Shown one piece after another: positions 34,030-52,208 of a DNA stretch of 64,000 nucleotides. The notes under the pieces are model-generated. The model did no database searches. It was not told where the DNA came from and was given only the letters and a program-made list of their open reading frames with translations. A program made the position numbers and the translations under genes. The DNA lies in NCBI RefSeq assembly GCF_024436055.1, contig NZ_JANFNH010000008.1:62001-126000 (forward strand), written 5' to 3'. Every line of letters starts with the position of its first letter. The first letter of the stretch is position 1. The DNA is from Streptantibioticus rubrisoli (lineage in GTDB: Bacteria; Actinomycetota; Actinomycetes; Streptomycetales; Streptomycetaceae).

Positions 34030-34069
34030 TTCCGGAACTGCGGATCACGAGCGGAAGGTCGGCCAACCG

Positions 34070-36199: not shown

Positions 36200-36234
36200 C
36201 GCAGCCACCGCCAGGGGGGCGGGCCGTACGGGCG

Positions 36235-36918
36235 TCAACCGGCCTGGATCCGGCGGCCGGTGCGGCGCTCGGGGACGATGCGCATCCACAGCTCACGTTC
36301 GCCTCCCGGCCAGGGAGCGCTGTGCGCCCGCTCCGTCAGCTGCCGCTCGGTGTCCGCGTTCGCGACCCGGTGGATGCGCCCGACGACCAGCACGCTCCAG
36401 CCCTGGCTGAGCGCCTCGTCGAGCTCGTCCACCTCGAAGGCCACCTCGGTCCCGTCAGCGGCCGCCAGACCGTTGTCGTAGGTGGTCCGGAAAGCGACGG
36501 TGTTGTCGGCCATCGTGTAGCTGACCGGCATGATGACCAGCCCGTCCGCGGTGTTCAACGCCACTCTGCCCACACCGTGCGCGCGGAGCCGGTCGTGGCA
36601 CTCCTGTGGACCCATCTCCACCAGACGGGGATGGTAGGCCGCCTTCCCCAAGCCGGGCGGCAGCTCGGCGTGGCTGCCCAGCAGTGCGTTCATGCTGGTG
36701 TCCAAGGCCGCGGCCAGACTGAGCAGCCCGCTGACATCCGGAGTCGCGGAGTGTTCCTCCACGTACTGGACGTAGCCGGGTGCCACCCGCGCCCGGGCGT
36801 CCAGTTCCTCGCGGGTGAGGCCCAGCTCCTCGCGTCGTAGCGCGACCCGCCTCCCGATGTCGCCCCGGTCCATCGACGACCTCTCCGTCGGACCCGTTGA
36901 GGACAGCTTCTTGGCCAC
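36235..36918 (-). CDS. XRE HTH domain fused to flavin-binding (PNPOx-like) domain
   Basis: A 227-residue fusion: residues 19-80 are an XRE-type HTH (IGRRVALRREELGLTREELDARARVAPGYVQYVEEHSATPDVSGLLSLAAAL) and residues 95-225 a split-barrel pyridoxamine-phosphate-oxidase-like domain (DRLRAHGVGRVALNTADGLVIMPVSYTMADNTVAFRTTYDNG). The barrel probably binds FMN or F420 and may sense redox state. The combination is common in Streptomyces, its targets are not known. It is convergent with the CDF gene and divergent from the stress-protein gene. Confidence 0.85.
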   Translation of the reverse strand: MAKKLSSTGPTERSSMDRGDIGRRVALRREELGLTREELDARARVAPGYVQYVEEHSATPDVSGLLSLAAALDTSMNALLGSHAELPPGLGKAAYHPRLVEMGPQECHDRLRAHGVGRVALNTADGLVIMPVSYTMADNTVAFRTTYDNGLAAADGTEVAFEVDELDEALSQGWSVLVVGRIHRVANADTERQLTERAHSAPWPGGERELWMRIVPERRTGRRIQAG

Positions 36919-37114
36919 AGCCGGACACTTCCTTCCACCGTCCCGGCCGCCGCTCAGCCGTGCGCGGCCGCCTCACATCCATCGTGGATCAGCGGCCACC
37001 GGCCTGCTCGGGGCAGGCGGCCCATGAGGGTCTTTCGCCCCCGTGCGAGGTTCGAGGCGGGATCGGACACTTGTAGTGAGGACATCGCCCCCCGGGCGTC
37101 CAGGGGACCCCGCC

Positions 37115-37131
37115 GGGACGGACGACGTCCC
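37115..37131. promoter_or_regulatory. inverted repeat upstream of the stress-protein gene
   Basis: GGGAC-N7-GTCCC, 40 bp before the universal-stress-protein start. DosR-type operators use GGGAC-N4-GTCCC, so the spacing differs by three; other regulators remain possible. Confidence 0.35.
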
Positions 37132-37170
37132 CGTCAGGACCTGGGAACCCGCCGCGAAACCGAGGCAGCG

Positions 37171-38040
37171 ATGAACACCCCGTCCGCAGACATCGTCGTC
37201 GTGGGATTCGACCGGTCGCAGGCCGCGTGGCGAGCGCTGGACTGGGCGGCCGACGAGGCCGCACAGCGCGGGACGGAGCTGCACATCCTGCATGCCCTGG
37301 GCGTCTACCTTCCCGGCGCCATCCATGAGGGCGTCCCCGAGCACCATCTTCTGGAAGCCGAGGAGGACTTGGAGCGGTCCGCACACCGCGCCCAGCAAGG
37401 CCGCGAGGGTCTGGTGGTGACCTGGGAGGCGGTCTGGGACGAGCCGGTGTCCTCGCTGATCCGCATGGCCAAGCAGGTCGCGCTGGTCGTGGTGGGTGCG
37501 CGGGGGCTGAACCGGTTCACCGCCGTGCTGCTCGGCTCGGTGAGCCAACGACTCGCCGCGCACGCGTCGGGTCCCGTCGTGGTGGTACGCGGCACGCGGG
37601 ACACGGCGGACGCGGCCGCAGCGGGCCCCGTCGTACTCGGTGTTGCCCCCGGCGAGCCGCCCGCGCCTGTGGAGTTCGCCTTCGCCGAGGCCGCCCGCTG
37701 GCACGCACCGCTGCACGCGCTGCGGACCTGGACGTACCCGCAGGCACTCCCCGGATACCTCGCGACGCCCCCGTCGGACGCCGAGGAGCACGTCGCCAGG
37801 GAACGCGCCGAAGTGGCGGAGGTACTGGCCGACGCCCGCCAGGCCTTCCCCGAAGTGGACGTCACGCAGGAGATCCGGCTGGTCGAGCCGGAGGAAGCAC
37901 TCATCAACGCGTCGCACACCGCGGGCCTGGTGGTCCTGGGCGCCCGACGCCACCGCCCACCGTTCTCCATGCGACTGGGCAAGGTCGTCCAACGCGTCCT
38001 GCACCAGGCCGACTGTCCGGTCGCGGTGGTACCGACCTGA
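37171..38040 (+). CDS. universal stress protein with two Usp domains
   Basis: A 290-residue tandem UspA protein. Domain 1 (IVVVGFDRSQAAWRALDWAADEAA ... VVVGARGLNRFTAVLLGSVSQRLAAHASGPVVVV) has the ATP-binding G-2x-G-9x-GS layout. Domain 2 (VVLGVAPGEPPAPVEFAFAEAARW ... VVLGARRHRPPFSMRLGKVVQRVLHQADCPVAVVPT) resembles it with a degenerate motif. Such proteins are induced by hypoxia, stasis or oxidative stress. An inverted repeat GGGAC-N7-GTCCC lies 40 bp upstream. The ATG at 37171 has a weak GGCAG site; the frame further upstream shows no homology. Confidence 0.9.
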   Translation: MNTPSADIVVVGFDRSQAAWRALDWAADEAAQRGTELHILHALGVYLPGAIHEGVPEHHLLEAEEDLERSAHRAQQGREGLVVTWEAVWDEPVSSLIRMAKQVALVVVGARGLNRFTAVLLGSVSQRLAAHASGPVVVVRGTRDTADAAAAGPVVLGVAPGEPPAPVEFAFAEAARWHAPLHALRTWTYPQALPGYLATPPSDAEEHVARERAEVAEVLADARQAFPEVDVTQEIRLVEPEEALINASHTAGLVVLGARRHRPPFSMRLGKVVQRVLHQADCPVAVVPT

Positions 38041-38138
38041 CTGCGGGGCGAACCGCGGCGGGGGTCCGACGAGCCGGTGACCCTGCACATGGTCGACGGA
38101 CTGCCACCGCGCGGGCCGGAACCGTGTCCACTTCGCCG

Positions 38139-38765
38139 TCAGTCCAGTTCGATGTTGAAGTCCCAGATCGCGACGACCTTGCCGTCATGGCGCCACGTCA
38201 ACTGTGCGGCGCCGGAGTGGTATGTGCCCGACAGGACGAGGTTCGCCGACTTCCCCGTGGTGGCGGTGACGGTCGTCGGGCCCGCGGGGGAGAGGGCGAC
38301 GTCCTTGCCCTGCTCGTCGCGGGAGCTGAAGTCATCGGCCTTGACGGTGAGCGGAGCGGTGGCCTGGCTGACGGTGATGGTGATGGTCCCCTTCGTCTGG
38401 TCGGGGACCTTGCCGCCCGCCGACGGCAGGTCTTCCACCGGCCCGCTGGCCACCACCAGGGCGGTGACGCCCGGGAGTTGGGCGCGGATCGGGGCACCCA
38501 TGGCCACCAGTTGCAGGTGGTGCTCATCGGCGGTGGGCGTGGCCTGCCCGGCGGGTCGTGACGGGATCGGCACGGCGCCGAGCTTGTGGACGGTGCTGGC
38601 GGCGTCGCCGTTGCCATCGGTGGACGGCGGGTGGTCGGCACAGCCTGCCAGCAGCGCCAGCGCGGCACAGGTCGGCAGGGCCAGGCGCAGGAGGGAAGGA
38701 GCGCGCCGGAGGCCGGGCCGACTGCGGTCGGCCCGGCGCGGCGCTGCGTTGCGCGCAGCGTTCAT
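38139..38765 (-). CDS. putative lipoprotein of unknown function
   Basis: A 208-residue exported protein with an Arg-rich n-region and a lipobox LLAGC at Cys42, so it is expected at the outer face of the membrane. The mature part has a Ser/Pro/Gly linker (DHPPSTDGNGDAAS) and an all-beta domain (LTVKADDFSSRDEQGKDVALSPAG, ANLVLSGTYHSGAAQLTWRHDGK, VVAIWDFNIELD) of no known family. It is 30 bp downstream of the secreted phosphoesterase gene and probably co-expressed with it, perhaps under phosphate control. Confidence 0.7.
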   Translation of the reverse strand: MNAARNAAPRRADRSRPGLRRAPSLLRLALPTCAALALLAGCADHPPSTDGNGDAASTVHKLGAVPIPSRPAGQATPTADEHHLQLVAMGAPIRAQLPGVTALVVASGPVEDLPSAGGKVPDQTKGTITITVSQATAPLTVKADDFSSRDEQGKDVALSPAGPTTVTATTGKSANLVLSGTYHSGAAQLTWRHDGKVVAIWDFNIELD

Positions 38766-38795
38766 CAGTTGCGTGGTCCTCGAAGGATCGGTCGG

Positions 38796-40235
38796 TCAGC
38801 GCCCGGCGGGTGACGGGTTGACGATCGGGTGTTCCGCCTCCTGGCTGTTGGCGACGGCGGGATAGACGACGCTCCCCGAGGGGGCCGGAGGCAGGGCGCG
38901 GCCGGAGGGGTTGTTGTAGACGTCTGCGCCGAAGGGCCGCAGACCGTCGGCACCGGCGTAGCCGAGGTGGCCGTGGCCGTCGGTGCCGCCGTGGTCGATG
39001 CCGAAGAGGTCCTCCATGCTGCGCAGCCAGCTGTAGTGGTTGTAGGGCTGGTCGCTGATGGACCCGGGCTTGATGAACCGGGAGATGAGCACGGAGCCGG
39101 TGATGCCGCCGCCGGGTGTGGTGTCCTGCCCGAACGCCTGGAAGCCCGGCTGCGTGGTGTTGGGGCCGGGCAGCTCGTTGCAGCACGCGACGATCGACTG
39201 GGAGGTGTCCGTCGGGGTGTTGAGCGACTTGTCCGCGTTGCCGGTGTAGTCGGCGATGGAGTTGCCGTACATCTTGTAGGGCGGGAACGCCTCGTCGAAG
39301 ACGACCTGGATGAGGCCGTCGTGCTGGAACGCGGGCGAGGCCATGATCTGCGGGATGACCTTCTCCAGGAACAAGTCCGAGGCGTACAGGCCGCCTTGGT
39401 GGTTGTTCGGGTCACCGGAGAGGTTGTCGCCCTTGCAGGTGGCGTCGTGGGCGTCGGAGCAGTTGTCCGGGGTGATCCAGGAGAACCTGGGGGTGGTGGA
39501 CTCGTGCTTGAGGTCCTGGGCCAGGCCGCTCTCCGCGCGGTGTCCCTTGGTCGCGGCAAGTCCGTCCAGCGGGACCACGTTCGCGCAGTCCTTGGGGTGG
39601 TCGAAGATCGAGTGGAACCAGACGGCCGGGTTGTGCTTGGGCACGTACTGGTCGGTCGCGGTGGCGCTACCGGGGTCGGGGACGCCCGCGCCGGAGGGGT
39701 TGCCCGGAATGCCGCACTGGTAGGCGTTCTCCCGGGTGGGGTTCTTCCCCATGTCCTGGGCGTAGACCTTCCACGGCACGTGCTTGTCGTCGAGCTGGTT
39801 GAACAGCGTCTTGACCGACTTGGGGTAGACGCACCCGGACGAGGCGAGGGTCTGGCCGTCCGGGGCGGGGGTTCCGGGGGTGACGTCCTTGTACTGCGGG
39901 CAGTCGTTCTGGTTGTCCGGGGCCGGAGCCTGGCCGGAGACCAGGCTGATGTAGTTGTCCAGGCTGTAGTGACCGGTGCCGTAGTACTGGCGCAGCAACT
40001 CCCCGTACTGGGGAAGGGTCTTCCACAGATAGCTGTTCTGGTTCAGCCCGGTGAACGTCGACTCGTAGGACTTGTTCTCCAGGATGATCGTCCACACGTG
40101 TCCGATCTTGTGGGCCGTGGGCCGGTTGTCTTCCTGGGCCGAGGCCGACGACGGGGCCAGAGTGACCGCCGCCAGCGTCAACGCCACCCCGGCGGCCAGG
40201 TGTTGCCACCGGCGGCCGAGCGTGAACCCTGCCAT
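38796..40235 (-). CDS. secreted phosphoesterase (phospholipase C/acid phosphatase-like)
   Basis: A 479-residue protein with signal peptide (MAGFTLGRRWQHLAAGVALTL... ASA-QED). HVWTIILENKSYESTF and YWSWLRSMEDLFGI-type sequence (YNHYSWLRSMEDLFGI) are typical of the PF04185 alkaline-phosphatase-superfamily phosphoesterases, with catalytic metal ligands spread through the SWITPDNCSDAHDATC and VFDEAF regions. It cleaves phosphate esters or phospholipids outside the cell. A candidate PHO box lies about 100 bp upstream, consistent with phosphate-starvation induction. Confidence 0.88.
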   Translation of the reverse strand: MAGFTLGRRWQHLAAGVALTLAAVTLAPSSASAQEDNRPTAHKIGHVWTIILENKSYESTFTGLNQNSYLWKTLPQYGELLRQYYGTGHYSLDNYISLVSGQAPAPDNQNDCPQYKDVTPGTPAPDGQTLASSGCVYPKSVKTLFNQLDDKHVPWKVYAQDMGKNPTRENAYQCGIPGNPSGAGVPDPGSATATDQYVPKHNPAVWFHSIFDHPKDCANVVPLDGLAATKGHRAESGLAQDLKHESTTPRFSWITPDNCSDAHDATCKGDNLSGDPNNHQGGLYASDLFLEKVIPQIMASPAFQHDGLIQVVFDEAFPPYKMYGNSIADYTGNADKSLNTPTDTSQSIVACCNELPGPNTTQPGFQAFGQDTTPGGGITGSVLISRFIKPGSISDQPYNHYSWLRSMEDLFGIDHGGTDGHGHLGYAGADGLRPFGADVYNNPSGRALPPAPSGSVVYPAVANSQEAEHPIVNPSPAGR

Positions 40236-40333
40236 ATCGCTCCTTCAACGTGTTGAGACGACGAAGACTGCCTCCGCCGACGACCCGCACTCTGCACCAA
40301 CTCACGCACGTGCAGTCTGGGTTCAAACGAACA

Positions 40334-40355
40334 TTCGGGTAACCGAAAGATAAAC
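40334..40355 (-). promoter_or_regulatory. candidate PHO box (PhoP direct repeats)
   Basis: On the minus strand two 11-base units, GTTTATCTTTC then GGTTACCCGAA, resemble the streptomycete PhoP direct repeat (consensus GTTCACC plus four); a third, weak unit follows. About 100 bp upstream of the phosphoesterase. Confidence 0.4.
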
Positions 40356-40556
40356 AACAGGTGATGTGGTGTCGAGGAGCCTATGTGTCGGCCAGCGTCA
40401 TCGAGCAGGTCAACCTCCTTGCTTCGGCGGGCCGTCGCGGTGCGGTGCTGGGGCGGTGTGGCCCATGTCACTTCCGGGCCGCGGTGGGCAGATCTTGTCG
40501 CAGTGTCGTGCCCACCAGTAGAACTGGGCTTTCTTCGACAAACTGAAGGTAGTCCG

Positions 40557-41762
40557 ATGACCGCAGAGCCGCCTCGGCCTGATGAATCCTCGCGCCAGAC
40601 CGATGGCGACTCGAACACCACTATTCCTGACGAGGTGTTCGACAAGCTCCTCGCCGACTCCGAGAGCGCGATCCGGGCCTCCGCACCCAAGGAACCCTCG
40701 GCACGCGCCCGTATGGTCACCGAACGGCTGCGGCGCGAGGATGAGACGGCGGCCCGGGCCAAGGGTTGGAAGGGCAGGAAGAACAAGCGGCCGCAGCCGG
40801 ATCCCTGGCGGGCCGCGCCGAACGTCATCCCGTCCAGGCGGCGCGGGTTTCCCAACTGGGCCCGCAACGCGTTGGCCGCGCTGGTGGCCGCCGGGGTGGC
40901 CGCGGTCGCCCTCAACCCCTCCGGCGCACTGTCGCTGGTACGCGGCGGATCGTCCGGCGGGTCGGGCAGCCACTCGGGCCCGCTTCCCGCCGAGACGCGC
41001 GCGCATGGCAGCGCACCGCCGACCGGCCCGACGGGCCTGGCGTCGTTCGACCACCCCTTCGCCGGATCGCCCGCCGAGCAGTGGGCCGAGGGCGCCGACG
41101 CCATCACCCTGCCCACCGCACGGCCGGTGGGAGCGATGAGCCGCGACCAGGTCGCAGCGGCACTGCGGAGCACCAAGGACTACCTGATCGCCACCAATCT
41201 CGACCCGCAGGTGCTCCGCGGTGGTTTCCCGCAGCGCGCCCTTGACGCGATCGACCCACTGGAGAGCGATACCCGGGACCGTTTCGAGGAGGCGTTCCGG
41301 TCCCCGAGCGACGACAACAACCCACTCAGCTTCGCCACCCGTTACAACCCCGGGGAACTCAAGCCGGTCGGCACCGTGGTGAAGGTCCGCGGTCAGATGA
41401 CGTTCGCCGAGGACCAGTACGGTTCGGTGCTGGTCTCCGCGGACTACACCTTCGTCTACGCCTTCACCAAGGCGGATGGCAGCACCGATCAGGTGGTGCG
41501 GGTCATCATGCGCCGCGAGGTCGGCATGCGGGTCGCTGATCCGTCCCGGGTCCGGGTCACCGCGGGCAGGTTGTGGCTGGTGAAGGACGACTCCAACTTC
41601 GGCAACTCGGGGTGCGACATCCACGACGGCTATGTGCACCCGGGTTTCGAATTCGCGCAGCCATCGGGCGGCACCCCCACCGGCTCGGTCGTCGATCCCT
41701 ACGACCGCAGCCACCCGCTCCCCAAGGGAACCGGCGTCTGCCGTAAGGACTCACGTACCTGA
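40557..41762 (+). CDS. membrane-anchored exported protein (SCO2583/SCO2584-like)
   Basis: A 401-residue protein: a cytoplasmic N-terminal domain with a conserved-looking helix (DEVFDKLLADSESAIRASAPKEPSARARMVTERLRR), a single TM segment (WARNALAALVAAGVAAVALN), and an extracellular domain of about 280 residues containing SVLVSADYTFVYAFTKADGST, RVIMRREVGMRV and one Cys pair. The N-terminal part resembles the domain named after SCO2583/SCO2584, and function is unknown. AAGGT lies six bases before ATG 40557; an upstream extension to 40383 looks non-coding. Confidence 0.7.
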   Translation: MTAEPPRPDESSRQTDGDSNTTIPDEVFDKLLADSESAIRASAPKEPSARARMVTERLRREDETAARAKGWKGRKNKRPQPDPWRAAPNVIPSRRRGFPNWARNALAALVAAGVAAVALNPSGALSLVRGGSSGGSGSHSGPLPAETRAHGSAPPTGPTGLASFDHPFAGSPAEQWAEGADAITLPTARPVGAMSRDQVAAALRSTKDYLIATNLDPQVLRGGFPQRALDAIDPLESDTRDRFEEAFRSPSDDNNPLSFATRYNPGELKPVGTVVKVRGQMTFAEDQYGSVLVSADYTFVYAFTKADGSTDQVVRVIMRREVGMRVADPSRVRVTAGRLWLVKDDSNFGNSGCDIHDGYVHPGFEFAQPSGGTPTGSVVDPYDRSHPLPKGTGVCRKDSRT

Positions 41763-41883
41763 CATGTCAGCGCGCACGCCGCGGAGTTGAACGACGGGCG
41801 AACCGGCTGAGCTCGGCTGCGCCTTCGGCGACGGCCCACTGGGCGAGGCAACCACGCGTCGCACCGCACGTGCCAAGCGCGGC

Positions 41884-42324
41884 CTAACGGGGGCAGACCG
41901 GTGTGGCCGCCGCCGATCGCGCGGGTACCCGGATCAGTGCCCGGTACGTGGTGGTGTCCTCCGGCTCGCCGACGCACCGGCCCTCGGCCTCGACCCAGGC
42001 GTGTGCGGCGAACGGCGACGTACGCACCCCCGAACACCACGTCGGCCAGCTTCCGCCGAGCCGGCACAGCAAGGCGGTGGCCAGCGAACGCTGTAGGCAG
42101 TAACGTCCGGCGCACAACGTGCTGATGGCCGTCACCTCCTGCCGCGCCCGTAGCGCATCGGCGTACTCGGCGGGCTTGGCTCCGCGCCGCAGCAGGTGCA
42201 GCACCGCGCGGATGCGGCGCGGCGGCAGCCGGGCGATCAGCCGCGCGGCACCGACGGCGGCGCGTGCGGCGACACGTCGGCCCAGCGGTGGTCGGACGGC
42301 GCTGTTCTCCAGGACCTGGCTCAC
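41884..42324 (-). CDS. lasso peptide biosynthesis B2 protein (transglutaminase-like protease)
   Basis: A 146-residue protease of the PF13471 type. CLQRSLATALLC provides the catalytic Cys region and FAAHAWVEAEG the catalytic His; this enzyme cleaves the leader after recognition by B1. The start overlaps the B1 stop by four bases, indicating translational coupling. The length is normal for split B2 proteins of actinobacteria. No transporter gene follows; the next gene downstream is on the opposite strand. Confidence 0.92.
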   Translation of the reverse strand: MSQVLENSAVRPPLGRRVAARAAVGAARLIARLPPRRIRAVLHLLRRGAKPAEYADALRARQEVTAISTLCAGRYCLQRSLATALLCRLGGSWPTWCSGVRTSPFAAHAWVEAEGRCVGEPEDTTTYRALIRVPARSAAATPVCPR

Positions 42325-42578
42325 GGGGCGCTCACCAGCTTCGCCCGGGTGAGTTGATCCATCAACGCCGCGACATCGGCGACCGCGCGCTCCCGGCTCA
42401 CCGGACGGACGCGGGAGAGCTGATCGGCCACCTGCTCAGGCGTGGCGCCGTCGATGAGTGCCTGGACGACAAGGGCACCGGTGCTGTTGAGCTGCCAGTA
42501 ACGCCCTTGGCGCTCGTCCAGCAACACCATGCCGTCATCGGTCGGGCACGCGGTGACATCAGCGCGTAGTCGGCTCAA
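42321..42578 (-). CDS. lasso peptide B1 protein (PqqD-type RRE)
   Basis: An 85-residue RiPP recognition element: MVLLDERQGRYWQLNSTGALVVQALIDGATPEQVADQLS matches the PqqD winged-helix fold. It binds the leader peptide, here the YEPPLL motif of the precursor, and delivers it to B2 and the cyclase. It overlaps both neighbours by four bases (ATGA), so cyclase, B1 and B2 are expected at similar amounts. Confidence 0.92.
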   Translation of the reverse strand: MSRLRADVTACPTDDGMVLLDERQGRYWQLNSTGALVVQALIDGATPEQVADQLSRVRPVSRERAVADVAALMDQLTRAKLVSAP

Positions 42579-44494
42579 CGTGGTGCTCCTTTGTGCGTGT
42601 GCTCATGCTCGCGTGGGACGGCGCGGCCCGTTCCACCGGCGTCCGGCTCCGGCCGGGGTGCATGCGCCGGGCTCAGGTGGGCCGGGACCGGATGCGCCTC
42701 GAGGTCCCGCAACCACGCCTCGGCGCCCAACGTGGCCTCCAACTCGGCCGATCCGCCGCGGAGCAGGCCGGGGGAGAGCAGGGCGCGCCGCAGCAGTTCC
42801 TCGTCGGCCACGCCCGCGGCCACCAGCCGGGAGTCCTCAGCCCACGCGGCCAGGGCCCGCTGGTGCACCCGCAGACCGTGCTGCCACTCCACGCCGCAGT
42901 GGTCCTTGGTGGTCCGGCACAGGACGCGCGTCGGCACCACGTCCCGCATCGCGGCGGCGAGCAGCGGTTTGTACGACCACGGGGCCGCCGCCTCGTGCGG
43001 CCGGGCCGCCAGACACGCGTTGATCACGGCGTCGTCGCAGAACGGGCTGTGTGCGAGCAGGCCCGTGGCGGCGGATTCGTACGCCAGGTGCCCGGCGATC
43101 CTGCCCGCTTCCTGTGCCTGGTGGATCCAGGCGTGCCGACCGCGTTCGGCGGCCAGTGGCTCGACGCCGTCGGCCGCGGCACGCAGCAGTGCGCCGATCA
43201 GGTCGACGGCCAGGTCGCTGGCCCATGGCGGGAGTTGCGGCTGCAGCCCCCACCCCTGCGGTGCGCGGACCACACGGCGGGCGGGGGCGGCCCGCAGCCG
43301 TGCGGTGGTTCCGGCCAGCCAGGTCCGGTACGAACGCCGGTCGAGCAGCATGCGTACCGCGTCGGGCCACGGCCAGCGTCGGCGGGCCCGCAACCCGGCG
43401 GCATGCCGCAACCCCACCAGGGGCGAGCGGCGCAGCAGCCCGTGCACATAGCCGTCCGGTGGCTGGACCACGTGGTCGCCGCCGTGCCCTGTCAGACGGT
43501 GGACGGCTCCGCGGGCCCGCATCGCCTCGGCCAGGTGGTGCTGACCGGCCCGGTCGCGCAGCCCGGCCGACGGTTCGTCACCGGGATCGCGGCGGTGGTC
43601 GAGACCGGTGAAGTGGGCTGGCAGTTCGGCGGAGGGGAACACCAAATGCTCAGCGCTGCACAGGAGTTCGGCCGCGTGCCGAGCGTAGGCGTGGTCCTCG
43701 TTGCCAGGCGCCGACCAGCGCAGGGTGGCGGTGACCAGGCGGGCCCCCGCCTCGGCGGCCAGAAAGCACAGCGAAGTGGAGTCCATGCCCCCGGACAGGT
43801 CCGCGCCCAGCACCTCCCCCGGCCGTACCCGTAGCGCCACGGCCTCGCGCAGCGCCTGCCGCAGCGCGGGAGCGGCCTCGGCGAGCGGCAGCTCCCCCTC
43901 GGGCGCCCGCCACCACCGGGCCGTACGCCACTGGCCGCCAGTGGCCAGATGCAGCGCCTCACCTGGGACGACTGCGCGGATCCCACGCCACAACCCGCCA
44001 CCGGCCAGCGGATGCGGCGCGGTGAATCCCGTGAGACGAACGGCGAGTTGCCCGGCGTCCAGCTCGGCGCCGGTGAGCCAGGCCAGGGTGCGCGCGCGGT
44101 CGGCACATACCGTGCCGCCCCCGACGGCCGCCAGGTACACCCGCCGCTGTCCGGACAGCGTCCCGCGGACATAGGTGTGGCCGCCGACGGATGCGATGAC
44201 GTGGAAGCTTCCATGGCAGGCGGACAGCTCGCTCTCGACGGCAGCCGCGCTGGTCACGCGCCTGGCCCGGGTGGCCAGCTCGTCGGGGGTGAGCGAGCAC
44301 GTCCCGGCCACGGCCAGCCGTACCTCTCCGGCGGCGGCGACGGACAGCTCGCCCTGGGACCAGGCGCCGACCAGCCAGGGACGCCCGGATGGGTGCGCGA
44401 CGACTCGCGAGGCGCGCTGCCGCAGCCGCCGCATGACATCGGGGTGGAACTCGCGGTCAGGAAGAACGACGAACCAGGTGGGGGAGGAGCCCAT
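42575..44494 (-). CDS. lasso peptide cyclase (asparagine-synthase-like)
   Basis: A 639-residue lasso cyclase. The N-terminal 200 residues follow the glutaminase fold but without the catalytic N-terminal Cys (begins MGSSPTWFVVLPDREF), as usual in this family; the synthetase domain has the ATP-pyrophosphatase loop GADLSGGMDSTSLC. It adenylates the Asp/Glu side chain in the core and forms the isopeptide bond to the N-terminal amine. Located 119 bp downstream of the precursor gene; B1 overlaps its end. Confidence 0.93.
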   Translation of the reverse strand: MGSSPTWFVVLPDREFHPDVMRRLRQRASRVVAHPSGRPWLVGAWSQGELSVAAAGEVRLAVAGTCSLTPDELATRARRVTSAAAVESELSACHGSFHVIASVGGHTYVRGTLSGQRRVYLAAVGGGTVCADRARTLAWLTGAELDAGQLAVRLTGFTAPHPLAGGGLWRGIRAVVPGEALHLATGGQWRTARWWRAPEGELPLAEAAPALRQALREAVALRVRPGEVLGADLSGGMDSTSLCFLAAEAGARLVTATLRWSAPGNEDHAYARHAAELLCSAEHLVFPSAELPAHFTGLDHRRDPGDEPSAGLRDRAGQHHLAEAMRARGAVHRLTGHGGDHVVQPPDGYVHGLLRRSPLVGLRHAAGLRARRRWPWPDAVRMLLDRRSYRTWLAGTTARLRAAPARRVVRAPQGWGLQPQLPPWASDLAVDLIGALLRAAADGVEPLAAERGRHAWIHQAQEAGRIAGHLAYESAATGLLAHSPFCDDAVINACLAARPHEAAAPWSYKPLLAAAMRDVVPTRVLCRTTKDHCGVEWQHGLRVHQRALAAWAEDSRLVAAGVADEELLRRALLSPGLLRGGSAELEATLGAEAWLRDLEAHPVPAHLSPAHAPRPEPDAGGTGRAVPREHEHTHKGAPR

Positions 44495-44613
44495 GGGCCT
44501 GTCCAGTGCGGTGAGGCGGGCACGAGTGGTGGGAGGCGGCCAGGCCGCGCGGATGGCGGCCGGGTGCCAGCCCTCGCCCAGCGCGGGGCGGAGCCGGCAC
44601 CCGGCACGGGTGA

Positions 44614-44754
44614 CTACCAGCCCATCCAGTGAGCGTGCCAGCCTTCCGGCGTAATCCCTTCGACGCCCTGGGTCAGCTCGGCGTAGTCGCCCGCCTCCGC
44701 CAGCAGCGGGGGCTCGTACACGTCGGTGGGCTCGATGGCCGGTGCTTCGTTCAC
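44614..44754 (-). CDS. lasso peptide precursor, predicted core GVEGITPEGWHAHWMGW
   Basis: A 46-residue precursor. The leader contains YEPPLL, the YxxPxL motif bound by B1 (RRE), and has Thr at the penultimate position (ELTQ), typical of the cleavage site. Cleavage after Gln29 leaves a 17-residue core starting with Gly1; Glu8 can form an eight-residue macrolactam ring, and the tail GWHAHWMGW is aromatic and ends in Trp. No Cys, so class II. GTG 44754 is used; GGAGGG lies 11 bases upstream, and the GTG at 44763 is too near it. Confidence 0.85.
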   Translation of the reverse strand: MNEAPAIEPTDVYEPPLLAEAGDYAELTQGVEGITPEGWHAHWMGW

Positions 44755-44777
44755 GGTGATCACATCCCTCCGGTCAA

Positions 44778-44800
44778 GGGACGCGGCAATTCCGCGTCCC
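44778..44800 (-). promoter_or_regulatory. perfect hairpin in the lasso precursor leader
   Basis: GGGACGCGG-N5-CCGCGTCCC, nine perfect base pairs, ending seven bases before the GGAGGG ribosome site of the precursor gene. It may stabilise the mRNA or serve as an operator. Confidence 0.5.
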
Positions 44801-45367
44801 TGCGAACCATTGAGAACCGGCCCGTCCAACCGCGCTACAGCACTTGAGGGGCAACCGTCCAGGCGGCCGACGTTTTATCACTGATGATGGTGAACCTAAC
44901 CCGGGCAGGTTTATCGGACAGCAGCATGGACATACCGGCTCGGGTGATGCCCAGGACCGGCTTCTAGCCTCCGGTGAGGCAGGACCGGTCGCGGAATCCG
45001 GCGGTGGACGCCACCTCGCCCGGTGACGCGCGCAAGCCCTTCGGGCTCCGATCAGTCATCTGGCCTCTCCAGTCAGCGCGTCGTGCGCGCGAGGCGGGGA
45101 TGCCGTGCGCGATCACGTCACCCAGACAGCGTAAGCGCAGACCCTGGCGACCTCCGTTACGTGGGGGCGCACAAGCATGGCCTGCCGACCGGGGAGATCC
45201 GCGCCGCGCCCGCCTGGCGCGAACACCGCGAGATCTTCACGGTCGGCCTCGGCGCCCCGCCGCCTGCCGGGACCGGTTGAAGCGGACCAGCGGCGTCAGC
45301 CCGCACACCTGTCGGCGTGCCGTGCGCTGACCACCGGCCTGGCGAGCCAACTCGCCGCAGCCACCGG
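44801..45367. other. 567-bp stretch without a supported gene
   Basis: Contains the probable promoter of the lasso operon (minus strand: TTAGGT, 16 bases, TAAAAC around 44870-44900, AT-rich). A plus-strand frame ending near 45280 (LPTGEIRAAPAWREHREIF) is open but has no ribosome site, so it could be a gene fragment. Confidence 0.4.
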
Positions 45368-47215
45368 TCAGTTGGCAGCCTTCAGGATCGCCGCGACGAT
45401 CGGCCCGGCGAACTTGTAGCCCTCACCGCTGTTCGGGACGGTGGCCGCCGCGGCCACGTCATCGCGGTACGCGACGAACCAGCTGTTGGGTTTGTTCTGC
45501 CCGTCCACCTCGGCGGTTCCGGTCTTGGCCCCGATGTCGCCGTCGAGTCCGGCCATCGCCGGAGCCGCCGTCCCCGACTGCGCGGTCAGCCGCATCATGG
45601 AGCGGACCTGGTCGGCCACCGAGCCGCTCAACTGCCGCGGCGGCTGAGCGAGCGTTCGCCCGTCGACCGACGGGGAGACGAGGAACGGCTGATGGAACGC
45701 ACCGGCCTTGACCGTCGACGCCACGGACGCCATCGCCAGCGGGCTCATCAGGTCATTGCCCTGGCCGATGTACGACATGGCCTTCATCGCCCCACTGGCG
45801 GCAGGCACGCTGCCGCTGTACGCGGGCACACCGACACTCCAGTTGAGCCCTATGCCGAAGACGTCGTGCGCCTCGTCGGCGACGGCGTTGTCGGGCAGGT
45901 ATGTCGCGGTGGAGATGAAGGCAGTGTTGCAGGACTGTGCGAAGTCCTGCGCCATCGTGGCGTTCTGCAGCGAGAAGTCATCCACGTTGTGGAAGTTCGC
46001 ACCGCCGTACTGGAAGTTCTTCGGGCAGTTGAGTGGTTTGTCGGGGGAGACCCGGCCGGTTTCGAGCGCGGTTGAGGCGGTGATCAGCTTGAACGTCGAA
46101 CCTGGCGCGTACGTGCCGCTGAGCGCCTTGTCGGAGCCGGTCGCGGGCTGGTTGGCGACCGCCAGGATCGCGCCGGTGCTGGGCTGGACCACCACCGTTG
46201 CGGCATCCGGTCCCTTGGTCTTGACCGCCTGCTCGGCCGCCGACTGGAGACGGGCGTCGATCGTCGTCCGCAACGGTTTCCCCGCCCTGCCTTGGGAGAG
46301 TTGGTGCAGCACCGGCCCCAGCTTCCCGTCGGCGCCCTCGACACGGATGTCGCTGCCCTGTGCGCCACCCGTCGCGGTGCCGTAGGCCGCCTGTAGCTGG
46401 CTGATCACGGAGCCCAGCGAGGGATACTCGGCGGCGGTCAGCGCACCGCCGTCGCGGTCCAGGATGGTGATCGCTGGCGCGGCCGAGTGGTCGACCACCA
46501 GCTTCTCGCCGTCGCCCAACGTCGGATACAGCACGGACGGGGCCCATTTGACCACCGGGCGCCCCGATGCGTCACGCACGACCGTCAGTTCCGAGCGGTA
46601 GTCCCACTTCGACCGCTGACCGTCGGCACTGAACCGGGCGCTGACCGAGAACGGCACGGTGGTGCCCTTTGCCGACTGGCCGGTCAGCACCAGCGAGGTG
46701 GCGTGCAACTCGGTCCGGAAGGCGTCGAGTTGGCCAGCGCAGTGCCGTGCGTCGTCGGTCAGGCCGGCGGCCTTCGCCGTGTCGCCGGACGACCACGCCG
46801 CGAGGAAGGCGCTCGAGGTGCGCGCCACCTCGGCGGGCGACAGCGCGGTGGCCTCTCTTCGCGCGGGCACCCGGGCCGTGGCGTGAGTGGCGTGCCCCAA
46901 CGGCCTACTGTGCGCCGGGCCCTGGAGCAGGGCATAGCACGCGTAGCCCGCTGCTCCGACCGCGACCGAGCAGGCTCCGCCTATCAGAGCGCCCTTGATG
47001 CCCCGCTGCGCAAGGACGCTCGACCGGGCACGACGCCGCATCGACGCCCGACGTGCGCGGCGGCCGGAAGCCGCGTGCGCGGCGTCGGTTGGCGGGGCGG
47101 TGTATGGGCCGGAATCCGCCGGGACTGACGGAGATGTCGGTGTGGGGAGCGCTCCGGGCAGGGTGGGGCGGCCGTAGTCGTTCGACTGCGGCGGCTTTCG
47201 CCGGTGCTCGCTCAT
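45368..47215 (-). CDS. class B penicillin-binding protein with MecA-type N-terminal domain
   Basis: A 615-residue protein: a cytoplasmic Pro/Arg-rich tail, one TM (GALIGGACSVAVGAAGYACYALL), an NTF2-like MecA_N domain (about residues 120-240), then the transpeptidase with S373TFK, S428CN and K564TG. It cross-links peptidoglycan and is a target of, or a tolerance factor against, beta-lactams. AGGAG is nine bases before the ATG at 47215; a longer start at 47428 gives an atypical extension. Beta-lactam-linked genes (BlaI, PAP2) lie elsewhere in the window, but a link is only inferred. Confidence 0.9.
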   Translation of the reverse strand: MSEHRRKPPQSNDYGRPTLPGALPTPTSPSVPADSGPYTAPPTDAAHAASGRRARRASMRRRARSSVLAQRGIKGALIGGACSVAVGAAGYACYALLQGPAHSRPLGHATHATARVPARREATALSPAEVARTSSAFLAAWSSGDTAKAAGLTDDARHCAGQLDAFRTELHATSLVLTGQSAKGTTVPFSVSARFSADGQRSKWDYRSELTVVRDASGRPVVKWAPSVLYPTLGDGEKLVVDHSAAPAITILDRDGGALTAAEYPSLGSVISQLQAAYGTATGGAQGSDIRVEGADGKLGPVLHQLSQGRAGKPLRTTIDARLQSAAEQAVKTKGPDAATVVVQPSTGAILAVANQPATGSDKALSGTYAPGSTFKLITASTALETGRVSPDKPLNCPKNFQYGGANFHNVDDFSLQNATMAQDFAQSCNTAFISTATYLPDNAVADEAHDVFGIGLNWSVGVPAYSGSVPAASGAMKAMSYIGQGNDLMSPLAMASVASTVKAGAFHQPFLVSPSVDGRTLAQPPRQLSGSVADQVRSMMRLTAQSGTAAPAMAGLDGDIGAKTGTAEVDGQNKPNSWFVAYRDDVAAAATVPNSGEGYKFAGPIVAAILKAAN

Positions 47216-47547
47216 GCTTCCAGCTCCTCGGGCAGGCGGTTTCGCCTGAAGGCGGCGTTGGACGTCCATACCCCGGATGTGACCCTTGCGGGCCACGCAG
47301 CACCACGAGCCAGGACGTCCCTGCGGCCCCGCATGGTTCCTGACGGGGTCCGCCTGGGGCAAATATCGCGCCGCCAAACACGGAGGAGGTGGCATTTTCC
47401 TTGTGAAACGGGCAGCCCCGGCGCCCATGCCGTCCGCTGTCCCGGCAGGTCCGGCGAACCCACCATAGACTCAAAAAGACGGACCTCACCGAGGTGCCGC
47501 CCTGCTGACGGCACGACCGCCGGTTGGTGCGCAGGTAGGGGATGCAC
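47216..47547. other. 332-bp divergent region between PBP and PP2C phosphatase genes
   Basis: No gene seen. It must carry both promoters. An A-rich patch (CAAATATCGCGCCGCCAAAC, 47359-47378) and an ACTCAAAAAGAC patch (47469-47480) are the best candidates, but I could not assign boxes with confidence. Confidence 0.4.
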
Positions 47548-49623
47548 ATGCCAGGTCCACCCAAAAGACGCGCACGTGTGGGGCTGGTGCCCCTCACCGC
47601 CGTCGCTGGTGGGCTGCTCGCCGCGCTGATCGGTCTTGCCTTCGCGGTGCTCCTCTGGTCGATCATCGGCCTCGGCCAGTCGACGGCCACCGAACGTGAC
47701 TCCCGTGCGGCACTCACCCAGGCGAGGAAGGTCGAGGGACTCGTCGTCGACCTGGAGACAGGTCAGCGCGGCTTCGTCATCACCGGGCAGAACCAGTTCC
47801 TTGAGCCATGGCAGACCGCCCGGACCACGTTCTCCGGCCAGGCAGGGCAGCTCGTACGCCTCAGCACCACCCCCGGCCAGCGGAGACTGGCCCAGCAGAT
47901 CAGCCAGGCTGGCGAGTCCCTCATCCGCGACTACTCGATTCCGCTGGTCGCGGCGGCACGCCGAGGGGACCCCCGTGCGCGCGGCGTGGCGGCGACGCTG
48001 GAAGGCAAGCGGCGCGTCGACGGGCTCAGGAAGCAGTTCGACCGCTACGACTCGGTCCAGGCGGCTCTGATCGCGGCCCGCGAGAGCGCGGCCAACGATG
48101 AGGCCCGGGAGGCGGTCATCGCAGCGTCGATCGGCCTCGCCGGTTCGATGCTCCTCATCGCGGCCTTCGCCGGGTACGTGATCCGGGCTGTTGTCTGGCC
48201 GGTCCGCAAGGCGGCCGACGTGGCCTCCCGGCTCGCTGGCGGCGACCTCGCCGTGCGGATGCCCGAAACCGGCAGGGGCGAGATCGCTCAGCTCGGGACG
48301 GCGTTCAACACCATGGCCAGCTCACTTGAGGAGAGCCGTGAGCAGGCACGCCACGCTCACGAGCGCCTCAGGCTGCTGTACGAGGCCAGCATCGTCATCG
48401 GCACGACGCTCGACGCGCAGCAGACCGCGCAGGAACTGGTGCGGGTGGCGGTCCCCCGGTTCGCCGACTTCGTCACCGTCGACCTGACCACGGCCGTCCT
48501 GCTCGCCGAGGAACCGCTCACGGACCACGGCACACAGGCTCGCCGCGTCGCCCTGGGCGGGATCCGCGACGACCCCCCGCTCGACCCCGTGGGCTCACGG
48601 ATCACCCTCGCCTCCTTCGCGCCGCACATCCGTGACGTGGCCAGCGCGAACGCGACCTTCCTGCCGCACCTGCGTACCTCCTCCGCATGGCAGATCCGCA
48701 ACCGCCACCAGGCCCGCGAGCTGCTGGACTACGGCATGCACTCGCTGATCACCGTCCCGCTGTACTCGCGGCGCATGCTCGTCGGTGCCGTCGGCCTCTG
48801 GCGATCGGAGAACCCCAGCCCGTTCGAGCAGGACGAGCTGTCCGACGCCGAGGAAATGGCCGCCAAGGCCGCCGTCGCGATCGACAACGCGCTGCGCTAC
48901 GCCCGCGAGCACGACACCGCCTTGACCTTGCAGCGCAGCATGCTGCCCCGCAGCTTCGAACCCCCGAACGGTATCGAGATCGCCCACCGCTACACGCCCG
49001 CCTCCGACGCCACCGAGGTCGGCGGCGACTGGTACGACGTGGCCGCCCTGACACCCGACAAGGCCGCCATCGCCATCGGCGACGTCATGGGGCACGGCAT
49101 CCCCGCCGCCGCCGTGATGGGGCAGGTGCGCACCACACTGCGCGCCCTCGTCCGCTTGGACCTGCCGCCCGACCAGCTCCTGCACCACCTTGACCAGTCC
49201 ATGCAGGACCTCGACGGTCCCATCCTGGCGACATGCCTGTACGGCGTGTGTGACGCCGCGGCCAACCGCTGCTGGCTCGCCCGGGCCGGACACCCCCCAC
49301 CCGCCCTGATCAGCCCGGACGGCACCGCCCGACTGATCGACCTGCCCCCTGGCGCGCCCCTCGGCATCGGCGGCATCTCCTACACGACCACCGAGATCCC
49401 CCTCACTCCCGGGACCGTGCTCGTCCTCTACACCGACGGGCTCGTCGAAGCCCGCGGGCAAGACCTCGACGAGCGCCTGAAGAAGCTCGTCCGCTTCCTC
49501 ACCGGTACCCATCCGTCCCTGGAAGACCTCGCCGACACCCTCATCAACCGCCTCGCCCCCACCCCCGCGCAGGACGACATCGCCCTCCTCATCGCCCGCG
49601 TCGGCACCCCCGGTCCCCGGTGA
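47548..49623 (+). CDS. membrane PP2C/SpoIIE phosphatase with CHASE3, HAMP and GAF domains
   Basis: A 691-residue signal-transducing phosphatase. TM1 (GLVPLTAVAGGLLAALIGLAFAVLLW) and a second TM near residue 200 bracket a CHASE3 sensor; HAMP follows (WPVRKAADVASRLAGGDLAVRMP), then GAF (about 270-420), then PP2C (VGGDWYDVAALTPDKAAIAIGDVMGHG ... PAQDDIALLIARV). Such Rsb-type phosphatases dephosphorylate anti-anti-sigma factors and so control SigB/SigF-type sigma factors; one is encoded at 58807. The ATG at 47548 follows GTAGGGG; one two codons earlier overlaps that site. Confidence 0.9.
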   Translation: MPGPPKRRARVGLVPLTAVAGGLLAALIGLAFAVLLWSIIGLGQSTATERDSRAALTQARKVEGLVVDLETGQRGFVITGQNQFLEPWQTARTTFSGQAGQLVRLSTTPGQRRLAQQISQAGESLIRDYSIPLVAAARRGDPRARGVAATLEGKRRVDGLRKQFDRYDSVQAALIAARESAANDEAREAVIAASIGLAGSMLLIAAFAGYVIRAVVWPVRKAADVASRLAGGDLAVRMPETGRGEIAQLGTAFNTMASSLEESREQARHAHERLRLLYEASIVIGTTLDAQQTAQELVRVAVPRFADFVTVDLTTAVLLAEEPLTDHGTQARRVALGGIRDDPPLDPVGSRITLASFAPHIRDVASANATFLPHLRTSSAWQIRNRHQARELLDYGMHSLITVPLYSRRMLVGAVGLWRSENPSPFEQDELSDAEEMAAKAAVAIDNALRYAREHDTALTLQRSMLPRSFEPPNGIEIAHRYTPASDATEVGGDWYDVAALTPDKAAIAIGDVMGHGIPAAAVMGQVRTTLRALVRLDLPPDQLLHHLDQSMQDLDGPILATCLYGVCDAAANRCWLARAGHPPPALISPDGTARLIDLPPGAPLGIGGISYTTTEIPLTPGTVLVLYTDGLVEARGQDLDERLKKLVRFLTGTHPSLEDLADTLINRLAPTPAQDDIALLIARVGTPGPR

Positions 49624-49688
49624 ATGCCCGACAGGCCCGGCAGGCCCTCGTCGTCGACACGCGTGGGCCTGAGTCACTTGACGCTACG

Positions 49689-52208
49689 TCACATTCGTTC
49701 AGGCAGCTGCCACTTCTGTGCGTGCGTGCCATTGCAGTCATAGAGCTGAAGTTGGGTTTCCCGCTCGGCCGTTGCGCCGGGGTCGTCGAGGCAGCGGCCG
49801 GACTGCGGGTTGTACAGCGCCCCGTTGGGCTGTGGTTCCCAGATCTGGGCGCCGGTTCCGTTGCAGTCATAGAGCTGGACGAGCGTGCCGTTGGCGGTCG
49901 CGCCATTGGCGGCGTCCATGCACTTGCCGAGGACGGTCAGCCGGTGGTCGGAGGTGACCGTCCACTTCTGGGCGCCGGTGTGGTTGCAGTCGTAGAGCTG
50001 GATCGGGGTTCCGTTGGCGAGGGATGCCCCGCGGTCGTCGAGGCAGAGGCCCGCGATGCCGGTGACGGCTCCGCTCGGCGGGGCCGTGGTGGAGGTGAGG
50101 GTGACGGTGCCGGTCAGTGGAAGGGTGCGGGAGGAGTCGCCGACGGCGATCCGGTACCGCCCGGCGGGGGCGGTCCATCCGTGGGCGTTCTGGTCCCAGT
50201 AGGACAGGTCCTTGGTGGTGAGGGTGAAGTGGACCGTGGTGCTCGCGCCGGGCGCGAGGTCGACCCGTTGGAAGCCCTTGAGCTGGTGGGTCGGCTCGCC
50301 CGTGCTGGCCGGGTCGCCGACGTAGAGCTGGGCGACATCAGCGCCTTGTCGGCGGCCGGTGTTGGTGACGGTCGCCGAGACGTTGACCGTGCCGTGCGCG
50401 TCGGGACCTGCCACAAAGAGGTCGTCGTACGAGAAGGTGGTGTAGGACAGGCCGTAGCCGAACGGGAACAGCGGCGTGATGTCCTTGGTGTCGTACCAGC
50501 GGTAGCCGACGTCGACTCCCTCGGAGTACCGCACCTGCCCGTTGGCGCCGGGCCACTGCTGTTGTGTGCTGGCCGGGACGTCGGTGAGGCTCCTGGGGAA
50601 GGAGACAGGCAGTTTCCCCGACGGGTTGGTGTCTCCGAAGAGCAGCGCGGCGATGGCGTTGCCGTCCTCCTGCCCTGGGTACCAGGCTTCGAAGACGCCC
50701 GCGACCTGGTCGATCCACGGCATGGTGACGGCGGAACCGGTGTTGAGCACCACGATGGTGTGCGGGTTCCTGGCCGCGACCGCGGAGATCAGCGAGTTGT
50801 CCGCGCTCGACAGGTCGATGGTGCCGAGGTCGCTGCCTTCCGACTCGAAGGTGCTGGCGAAGACCACGGCCACCGAGGAGGAGCCAGCCAGATCGGCCGC
50901 CGAGCTGGGGTTGGAACCGTCGTCGTAGGCGACCTTGATCCCACTGCCAGCGCGGTGGGTGATGCCCGTCAACGGGGTGACGACGTACGGTGCCTTGACG
51001 CCCGCGCTCCCGCCGCCCGCGGTCCTCGCCTTGGAGTCGGCATCCGCGCCGATCACCGCGATCGAGTGCACGGTGGAGGGCCGCAGCGGCAGCACACCAC
51101 CGGCGTTCTTCAGCAGCACGCTGCCTTCCTCGGCGACCTGACGGGCCGTCGTGGAGTGCGCGTCGCTGGTGACGACCGCGCCCGGAGAGCCGGACGGCTT
51201 CCTGTCGAACAGCCCGAAGGCGAACATCTGCCGTAGGATCCGGCGGACCATGTCATCCAGGCGTGACTTCGCCACCTGACCGCCGTTGACTGCCGAGTTG
51301 AGCGGCGCGCCGAAGTAGCCGCCACCCGGCATCTCCATGTCGAGGCCGTTGTAGGCGGAGTTGATGGTCGAGTGGGTGGCACCCCAGTCGGAGGTGACGA
51401 AGCCCTTGAAACCGAACTGGCTCTTCATCGCCGTGTTGAGCAGGTAGGGGTTGGCACACGCGTCCTGGCCGTTGACCCAGCTGTAGGAGCACATCACCGA
51501 CGAGGCCCCGGCCCGCGCCGCGGCCTGGAACGCGGGCAGATAGATCTCCTGCATCGTCCGCTCGGAGACGTCGGCGTTGTCGGCGGCGCTGTTGCGATGG
51601 GTCTCCTGGTTGTAGACGGCCAAGTGCTTGACCTGGGCCAGCACACCCTGGCTCTGGGTGCCGGTGATGTCGGCCGCACCCATCTTCCCGGCGAGGTACG
51701 GGTCTTCGCCGAGAGATTCGAAGGCGCGCCCCCAGCGCGGGTCGCGCACGATGTTGATGGTCGGGCTCAGGGCGACGCTGGCGCCCTTGCCAGCGTCTTC
51801 CGCGCCGATGACCGCTCCGTACCGCTGCTCCAGGGCGGTGTCCCAGGTTGCCGCGCTAGCCACGGGCGCCGGTAACTGCGTCACACCGGTCATCCCGTCG
51901 CCGATACCGGCCGGACCGTCTTCCAGGCCCAGCGCCGGGACACAGAGCCGGGAAATGGCGGGCACGTTGCCCACGTAGGGCTGGGTGGAGCCGTTGCCGT
52001 GGACAAGGCTGACTTCCTTGTTCTGAGTGATCCGTGCCATCACCTCGTCGACCCGCTGGTCCACCGGCGCGGTCGAACCCACCCAGGGGCAGGAGTTGGC
52101 GGCGTGGGCCGCGGGTGCGAACACCACCGGCCCGGCCGAGGCGGCGACCAGCAGTGTCAGTGCTGCTGAGCCGCAGCGAGCGGCCCTTTGGCAAAGAGGT
52201 GAAGACAT
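49689..52208 (-). CDS. secreted GH3 beta-glucosidase with C-terminal ricin-type lectin domain
   Basis: An 839-residue protein: signal peptide (ends AAHA-ANS), GH3 N-domain (SLVHGNGST, GPAGIGDGMTGVTQLPAP), nucleophile Asp in GFVTSDWGAT, GH3 C-domain (EGSVLLKNAGGVLPLR, DDGSN, AWYPGQEDGNAIAALLFGDTNPSGKLPVSFPRS), a fibronectin-III-like domain, and a ricin B-type beta-trefoil with three QxW repeats (GAQKW, GAQIW, HAQKW). It cleaves beta-glucosides and binds polysaccharide through the lectin. Start at ATG 52208, seven bases after AGGAG. Its own promoter lies 67 bp upstream. Confidence 0.93.
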   Translation of the reverse strand: MSSPLCQRAARCGSAALTLLVAASAGPVVFAPAAHAANSCPWVGSTAPVDQRVDEVMARITQNKEVSLVHGNGSTQPYVGNVPAISRLCVPALGLEDGPAGIGDGMTGVTQLPAPVASAATWDTALEQRYGAVIGAEDAGKGASVALSPTINIVRDPRWGRAFESLGEDPYLAGKMGAADITGTQSQGVLAQVKHLAVYNQETHRNSAADNADVSERTMQEIYLPAFQAAARAGASSVMCSYSWVNGQDACANPYLLNTAMKSQFGFKGFVTSDWGATHSTINSAYNGLDMEMPGGGYFGAPLNSAVNGGQVAKSRLDDMVRRILRQMFAFGLFDRKPSGSPGAVVTSDAHSTTARQVAEEGSVLLKNAGGVLPLRPSTVHSIAVIGADADSKARTAGGGSAGVKAPYVVTPLTGITHRAGSGIKVAYDDGSNPSSAADLAGSSSVAVVFASTFESEGSDLGTIDLSSADNSLISAVAARNPHTIVVLNTGSAVTMPWIDQVAGVFEAWYPGQEDGNAIAALLFGDTNPSGKLPVSFPRSLTDVPASTQQQWPGANGQVRYSEGVDVGYRWYDTKDITPLFPFGYGLSYTTFSYDDLFVAGPDAHGTVNVSATVTNTGRRQGADVAQLYVGDPASTGEPTHQLKGFQRVDLAPGASTTVHFTLTTKDLSYWDQNAHGWTAPAGRYRIAVGDSSRTLPLTGTVTLTSTTAPPSGAVTGIAGLCLDDRGASLANGTPIQLYDCNHTGAQKWTVTSDHRLTVLGKCMDAANGATANGTLVQLYDCNGTGAQIWEPQPNGALYNPQSGRCLDDPGATAERETQLQLYDCNGTHAQKWQLPERM

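Follow-up and report, generated by a model that had tools for sequence, protein, structure and literature searches.

Does a short gene segment in the soil actinobacterium Streptantibioticus rubrisoli encode a lasso peptide of an unfamiliar kind, and what do the inverted repeats on either side of its precursor gene do? The segment lies at positions 41884-44754 of a 64,000-nt stretch of DNA (contig NZ_JANFNH010000008.1, positions 62,001 to 126,000; hereafter the window). We conclude with high confidence that it is a minimal actinobacterial-type A-C-B1-B2 lasso cassette with split B1 and B2, leading to a predicted 17-residue class II lasso peptide, and that two hairpins bracket A. The original prediction, made from the letters of the stretch, had placed a precursor, a cyclase, B1 and B2 here in that order, and all four are found in this interval on the minus strand. 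They are the lasso precursor A (44614-44754; GTG start, 46 amino acids (aa)), the asparagine-synthetase-like cyclase C (42575-44494; 639 aa), the PqqD-like leader-recognition protein B1 (42321-42578; TTG start, 85 aa) and the transglutaminase-like leader peptidase B2 (41884-42324; GTG start, 146 aa). The last three genes had been said to overlap by ATGA. The overlaps exist, but their letters are TTGA between C and B1 (42575-42578) and GTGA between B1 and B2 (42321-42324). A and C do not overlap, and the 119-nt gap between them contains a large hairpin.

The family matches carry the assignment of the genes. Precursor A matches lasso_leader_L3 (NF033521) at 27.3 bits (cut-off 19), B1 matches NF033530 at 106.3 bits (cut-off 70) as well as PF05402, and B2 matches NF033537 at 116.4 bits (cut-off 33) as well as PF13471. 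C matches PF00733 at 111.8 bits (cut-off 21), and its translation contains SGGMDS, which we take to be the ATP-binding motif. In B2, the residues Cys71, His108 and Glu120, to which we assign a presumed catalytic role from the family, are invariant across 9 aligned B2 proteins (9/9). The best solved-structure match for B1 is TfuB1 (6jx3), with E 1.6e-17 over B1 residues 3-77; no solved structure matching C or B2 by sequence was found. The locus thus contains each part of a split-B lasso cluster, namely a leader and core, a PqqD-like B1, a transglutaminase-like B2 and an asparagine-synthetase-like C, where leader and core were recognized as a YxxP...T(-2) leader followed by a core that begins with Gly or similar and has Asp or Glu at positions 7-9.

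One result sits less easily with this assignment. The best lasso-cyclase model for C, NF033561, gives 243.4 bits (E 4.7e-72), under its curated cut-off of 300, and we therefore regard C as a divergent cyclase. That model belongs to the albusnodin family, which also supplies the second-best leader model for the window precursor (NF033525), at 16 bits against a cut-off of 30. With both scores below their cut-offs, membership in the albusnodin family was rejected. Albusnodin is acetylated, according to the title of a paper in the reference list of PMC12427821, and no acetyltransferase occurs among eleven window neighbour genes scanned.

Translation of A on the minus strand gives the leader VNEAPAIEPTDVYEPPLLAEAGDYAELTQ (44668-44754) and the predicted core GVEGITPEGWHAHWMGW (44617-44667), which has 17 aa, a predicted ring from Gly1 to Glu8 and a tail of 9 aa; the stop codon TAG follows at 44614-44616. 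These are exactly the core letters of the original prediction, with Gly1 and Glu8 in place. A GGAGG Shine-Dalgarno (SD) sequence at 44767-44771, 12 nt before the GTG at 44754, is invariant across 11 aligned relatives. We picked this start codon by the position of the SD; the GTG at 44763, three codons further upstream, is an alternative, and the list of open reading frames used a longer TTG start. The core contains no Cys, which places the predicted product in class II as that class is described in PMC12427821. The linear core minus water corresponds to a computed monoisotopic M of 1930.8573 and an [M+H]+ of 1931.8646 for the predicted lasso.

The same precursor is present in 3/3 genomes compared from the genus Streptantibioticus, including the window genome (7.26 Mb). 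The other two, Streptomyces sp. RPT161 and Streptantibioticus ferralitis JCM 14344, have the same cassette and near-identical cores, GVEGITPEGWHAHWVGV and GVEGITPEGYHAHWVGV, respectively. The segment GVEGITPEG, which includes the Gly1...Glu8 ring, is unchanged in both congeners; therefore the ring is fixed in this comparison and the tail is variable at three positions, the final Trp among them. The tail ending in Trp, a feature singled out originally, is correct for the window but is not conserved in the genus, as both congeners end in V.

Related precursors extend well beyond the genus, to 19/394 genomes of the taxonomic family at E <= 0.001, a count that takes in the three from the genus, and, with an alignment profile, to 52/392 Streptomyces genomes at E <= 1e-4. 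Gly1 together with Asp or Glu at position 8 or 9 occurs in 18/20 cores of a first set that includes the window and its congeners, the exceptions being L011 (Ser1, Asp9), which is moomysin, and L017. It occurs in 13/14 cores of a second set, in which L051 was masked; a third set, in which several loci are not cleanly readable, was left untallied. The core prediction, in which cleavage would fall after ...ELTQ with Thr at -2 and the ring would have eight residues, is supported by the leader and enzyme families, by the same ring in two congeners and by the Gly1 and Asp/Glu 8/9 of the relatives. Thr(-2) is itself invariant in 10 aligned precursors.

Upstream of A, a hairpin with a 10-bp stem and a 5-nt loop occupies 44777-44801 on the minus strand and ends 5 nt from the SD. 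Its letters are AGGGACGCGG-AATTG-CCGCGTCCCT, and it is found by folding (-25 kcal/mol, z -4.0 in a 41-nt fold), by covariation and by a covariance model, R1. Many relatives have a hairpin in the same place with different arms, such as GGGGACGG/CCGTCTCC, GGAGGTGG/CCACTTCC and CGGAGATGG/CCATCTCCG. Across 16 aligned rows, both sides change in 7/9 pairs, with 19 such cells, and 86% of cells pair. Four of five covariation measures are reached by 0/500 shuffles; the fifth, the number of pairs with change on both sides, is reached by 20/500, and sliding the pairing partners collapses the score. These 16 rows were picked because the hairpin is visible in them and were centred by hand, and relatedness among rows can raise counts of this kind. 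The L053 row was placed by hand though the automatic scan favoured another spot, and L013 and L062, whose hairpin is in a different register, were excluded. Because the rows were chosen for the hairpin, the count speaks for covariation of the arms wherever a hairpin is present and says nothing of how frequent it is.

R1 was built from 11 of the 16 rows, none of them from the window genus. It scores 30.0 bits in the window, 28.9 in RPT161 and 22.5 in S. ferralitis, and 48.9 at G169 (L025), on which it was not trained. Among 70 matches listed for the window genome, the window element is the top match and lies at the expected place. The next matches score 25.7, 25.0 and 21.4 bits; by eye these three runners-up are a GC-rich repeat near a gene end and two SD/start words with no hairpin. 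When 392 Streptomyces genomes were scanned with stricter filters and 15 candidates scored per genome, 15 matches reached E 1e-6. The matches of at least 47.1 bits all stand at independently found lasso precursors (7/7; six are training loci and G169 is not), and none of the matches of 29.8-32.3 bits precedes a lasso precursor (0/8). The 30.0 bits of the window fall within this false-match range, so position is part of the evidence for the window element. Viewed from the precursors, 7 of the ten best in Streptomyces (E <= 1.3e-14) have an R1 match at E <= 1e-6.

Several observations weigh against extending the 5' hairpin to lasso clusters at large. The other three of the ten best precursors (G600, G458 and G537:C2) have no R1 match at E <= 1e-6, the element is absent at L009, L010, L022, L048 and L058, and L043, counted as hairpin-bearing, reaches only 10.1 bits with R1. 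In addition, a hairpin score of at least 18 before the SD is found in 15/50 distinct lasso upstreams versus 17/118 other genes, a modest excess; this test put the SD in the wrong place at some loci (L013, L053 and L054), which lowers the 15. We therefore rejected the idea that lasso clusters in general have the 5' hairpin, and we restrict the claim to the clade whose leaders are of the DVYEPPLLAEAG type, within which L010, L022 and L048 still have no hairpin. Neither hairpin of the window has an Rfam 15 match up to E 1 in 41500-45400, and no report of a 5' hairpin in a lasso cluster was found among the titles and abstract openings listed by literature searches aimed at it, or in the passages of PMC7549694 consulted.

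The second hairpin fills part of the A-C gap, at 44557-44608 on the minus strand, beginning 5 nt past the stop codon of A. It is predicted by folding (-47.1 kcal/mol, z -5.0), and repeats recur at this place in relatives: a perfect repeat no more than 16 nt past the stop, matched by at most 3/60 shuffles, is present at 12/20 loci. L006, L044, L049, L050, L052, L009 and L010 do not pass this test, and at L013 the repeat lies further off. Both sides change in 6/12 consensus pairs among 13 sequences picked by hand from the 20, window included, a count made with no shuffle control. A related case may be astexin-1, whose hairpin reportedly lies after the precursor gene; the window differs in having an additional covarying hairpin before the precursor. 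PMC7549694 gives the astexin-1 cluster a hairpin in the precursor region, as in the window, and lists 'RBS substitution/removal of the hairpin' (RBS, ribosome-binding site) as a strategy.

We infer that the two hairpins most likely shield the short precursor mRNA or partly terminate it, which would yield far more precursor than enzyme. More tentatively, and at somewhat less than even confidence, we propose that a group of streptomycete lasso clusters has a dedicated covarying RNA hairpin before the precursor RBS, paired with a hairpin after the stop codon, and that this bracket controls how much precursor is made, or gates its translation, and moves together with the four-gene cassette. Simple scans of 44400-45100 found no sigma-70-like promoter or U-tailed terminator, which weighs against such a role for the hairpins.

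A different view of the inverted repeat before the precursor is that it acts in DNA, as an operator for a dimeric regulator, and not as an RNA hairpin. The repeat is a near-perfect palindrome upstream of a secondary-metabolite gene, and in many relatives its centre, often GGAAnTTCC, is well conserved. Unlike a fixed operator, however, its arms change together, with GC, AU, UA, CG and GU all found at one pair, and the element lies about 5-9 nt from the SD, where one would expect an mRNA element to sit. The same covariation trace could arise under a regulator that tolerates different arm sequences. We consider the operator unlikely on balance, though a serious competitor to the RNA hairpin.

The cassette could be a decaying or silent relic, with genes that seem intact and no lasso made. 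C falls under its model cut-off, the neighbourhood of the cassette differs among the three genus genomes, and there is no widely conserved transporter. Against this, all four reading frames are intact in the three genomes, and the pairwise ratios of nonsynonymous to synonymous substitution are well below 1 (A 0.16-0.41, C 0.26-0.29, B1 0.17-0.24, B2 0.16-0.26; point estimates with no significance test, A being compared on 46 or 50 codons). The invariance of Cys71 and His108 of B2 in 9/9 proteins points the same way, and we judge a relic improbable.

The neighbourhood adds little to the cassette. Among 29 clustered loci, consisting of window positions 33001-53000 and 28 others with crudely called genes, no transporter or immunity gene is widely recurrent, and the commonest extra families reach 3/29, a point against our main reading. 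By eye, one of these families is ATP-binding cassette (ABC)-like (L025, L037 and L038) and another is short-chain-dehydrogenase-like. The clustering recovered B2 in only 13/29 loci, as some copies escaped the gene caller; with tblastn it is recovered in 13/15 loci outside the genus, the misses being L034, at a contig end, and L038, which also has no B1. When 45 window genes, cassette excluded, were searched by tblastn against the 28 other loci, four matches resulted. One is a Pfam-identified alpha-galactosidase (30992-33085), 89% identical in RPT161 (L023), where it lies about 1 kb from the cassette versus about 9 kb in the window; the other three are weak, at 32-45% (L025, L027 and L031). Recurrent neighbours are so scarce that we claim no extra cluster member. 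A Pfam scan of the eleven neighbours in 29027-52214 gave matches for nine, a sodium/hydrogen exchanger, the alpha-galactosidase, a PAP2 protein, a cation efflux protein, a universal stress protein, a phosphoesterase, a penicillin-binding protein, a SpoIIE-type phosphatase and a GH3 enzyme, and none for two; no lasso-type ABC transporter is among the eleven.

The homologous stretch around the cassette is about 41920-44839 for one congener and about 41932-44914 for its counterpart. The window flanks lie on other contigs in the congeners or, in the case of the phosphoesterase in G001, share the contig at a distance of about 55 kb. Since the flanks lie elsewhere in both, no clean insertion site could be demonstrated, and the idea of an empty site was dropped. 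In RPT161 (L106, G002:C63), window 38132-40378 is found in inverted orientation, some 50 nt away from a segment that matches 44919-45022, with the cassette on another contig; this is a rearrangement near the upstream edge of the cassette.

A ring that closes elsewhere, or a core that begins elsewhere, for example by cleavage one residue off, is a very slim prospect: Glu3 offers a second acid in the core and the product is known here from the genes alone, yet Glu3 is too near Gly1 and would give too small a ring, Gly1 and Glu8 are constant in the genus, and Thr(-2) does not vary.

How unfamiliar, then, is the predicted core? The original prediction could not match its features to any known lasso peptide. 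This holds for the exact core, since five pieces of it (among them ITPEGW, HAHWMG and GVEGIT) are absent from the literature searched, a scope outside of which lie supplementary files and most subscription journals; no literature joining Streptantibioticus with lasso was found in it either. It does not hold for the Trp/His-rich character, as class II lassos of that kind have already been characterized. Table 1 of PMC12427821 lists as class II moomysin, which equals cattlecin (SYHWGDYHDWHHGWYGWWDD), arcumycin (SGQGWDWVDYHHGWYGWWDD), achromosin (GIGSQTWDTIWLWD) and RES-701-1 (GNWHGTAPDWFFNYYW), all rich in Trp/His or other aromatic residues. What is new about the core is therefore its exact sequence and not its type.

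The window core was aligned with 60 rows of that table. The best-scoring rows are arcumycin (33.0; 6 identities), moomysin/cattlecin (28.5) and achromosin (28.0), and none of arcumycin, achromosin and RES-701-1 is a close sequence relative. With gaps, some rows have more bare identities than arcumycin, namely pandonodin (10, from a 33-residue core) and ubonodin, caulosegnin II and benenodin-1 (7 each), but their scores are low (-1.0 to 13.0). Fuscanodin/fusilassin, whose TfuB1 is the best structural match for the window B1, differs in its Thermobifida organism and in its core (WYTAEWGLELIFVFPRFI in PMC12427821).

One relative is the moomysin locus (L011), which belongs to the same taxonomic family, was picked up through the similarity of its precursor (E 5.2e-6) and encodes exactly the moomysin core. 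This leader type is therefore known to yield a lasso. Like the window, the locus has a split B1/B2 cassette, with the leader AYEPPMLVEVGSFAELT and a Trp/His-rich tail; its enzymes (listed as L031) are 57% (B2), 49% (B1) and 37% (C) identical to those of the window, and an inverted repeat also follows its precursor (1/60 shuffles as good). Moomysin differs in having Ser1, a longer core (20 aa), the acid at position 9 and a tail ending in WWDD, and its alignment to the window core is weak (5 identities, z 1.3). Uncharacterized cores of the same taxonomic family that are Trp/His- or Trp-rich and end in W number at least 4 (L009, L065, L067 and L070), and examples of uncharacterized cores from Streptomyces are GFRGHHWDGWAGFGHKWW, GFHGHHWDAFGGRGHGWW and GYTGYHWDGWAGFFGW. 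As a separate observation, the cores of L009, L058, L065, L067 and L070, which belong to other leader groups, are of a G[FY]xGxxWDxxxG type, Trp-rich and mostly His-rich, and 4/5 end in W.

In lasso biosynthesis, B1 delivers the leader, B2 cleaves it off, and C forms the isopeptide bond with the tail threaded. Applied to the window, B1 would bind the leader through the motif VYEPPLLAEAGDYAELT and deliver it, and B2 would cut after Gln(-1), beside the conserved Thr at -2. C would then activate Glu8 with ATP and couple it to the Gly1 amino group, so that the ring closes around the threaded tail. The result would be a class II lasso of 17 residues that the bulky Trp/His side chains may lock. The gene products and cleavage register in this scheme are assigned from families and conservation, and the product, its mass, its threading and the hairpin function are predicted from sequence.

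Other lasso-related sites were seen along the way. A dyad, CAC[CT]C-NNTC-G[AG]GTGG, stands before precursors about 110-160 nt ahead of the YxxP codon, for example at L008, L011 (with NNAC), L015, L044, L069 and L080. The strict pattern occurs in 7/52 distinct upstreams, two of them nearly identical, versus 0.08 expected. A weight matrix from six seed sites exceeds its 99% background threshold in 14/52 upstreams, seeds included, and after refinement on the same set in 24/52, where the background is 5/500 by construction. The dyad, present at the moomysin locus and not in the window genus, may be a regulator site that Streptomyces lasso clusters share. The window genome also has a second lasso-type B2 (PF13471) at G000:C35:9540-9869 (L040:9390-9905), which shares 58% identity with the window B2 across residues 20-137 and has a major facilitator superfamily transporter and a chitinase nearby. 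No second B1 or leader was found in that genome, and this B2 has the look of an orphan or a relic. In RPT161 there is a second, weak lasso-leader match (G002:C24:2690-2743; 19.5 bits, cut-off 19), and in one Streptomyces genome three lasso precursor matches stand in a row within about 450 nt (G421:C5:371266-371709).

For work with these clusters, the hairpins may be of practical use, since heterologous expression of actinobacterial lasso clusters is called problematic in PMC5974421 and hairpin removal is a listed strategy for astexin-1. If the 5' hairpin does control precursor supply, refactoring designs should retain it or deliberately replace it. For Streptantibioticus itself, the cassette would add one more uncharacterized Trp/His-rich class II lasso peptide, which has homologues in three genomes and can be sought by its exact predicted mass.

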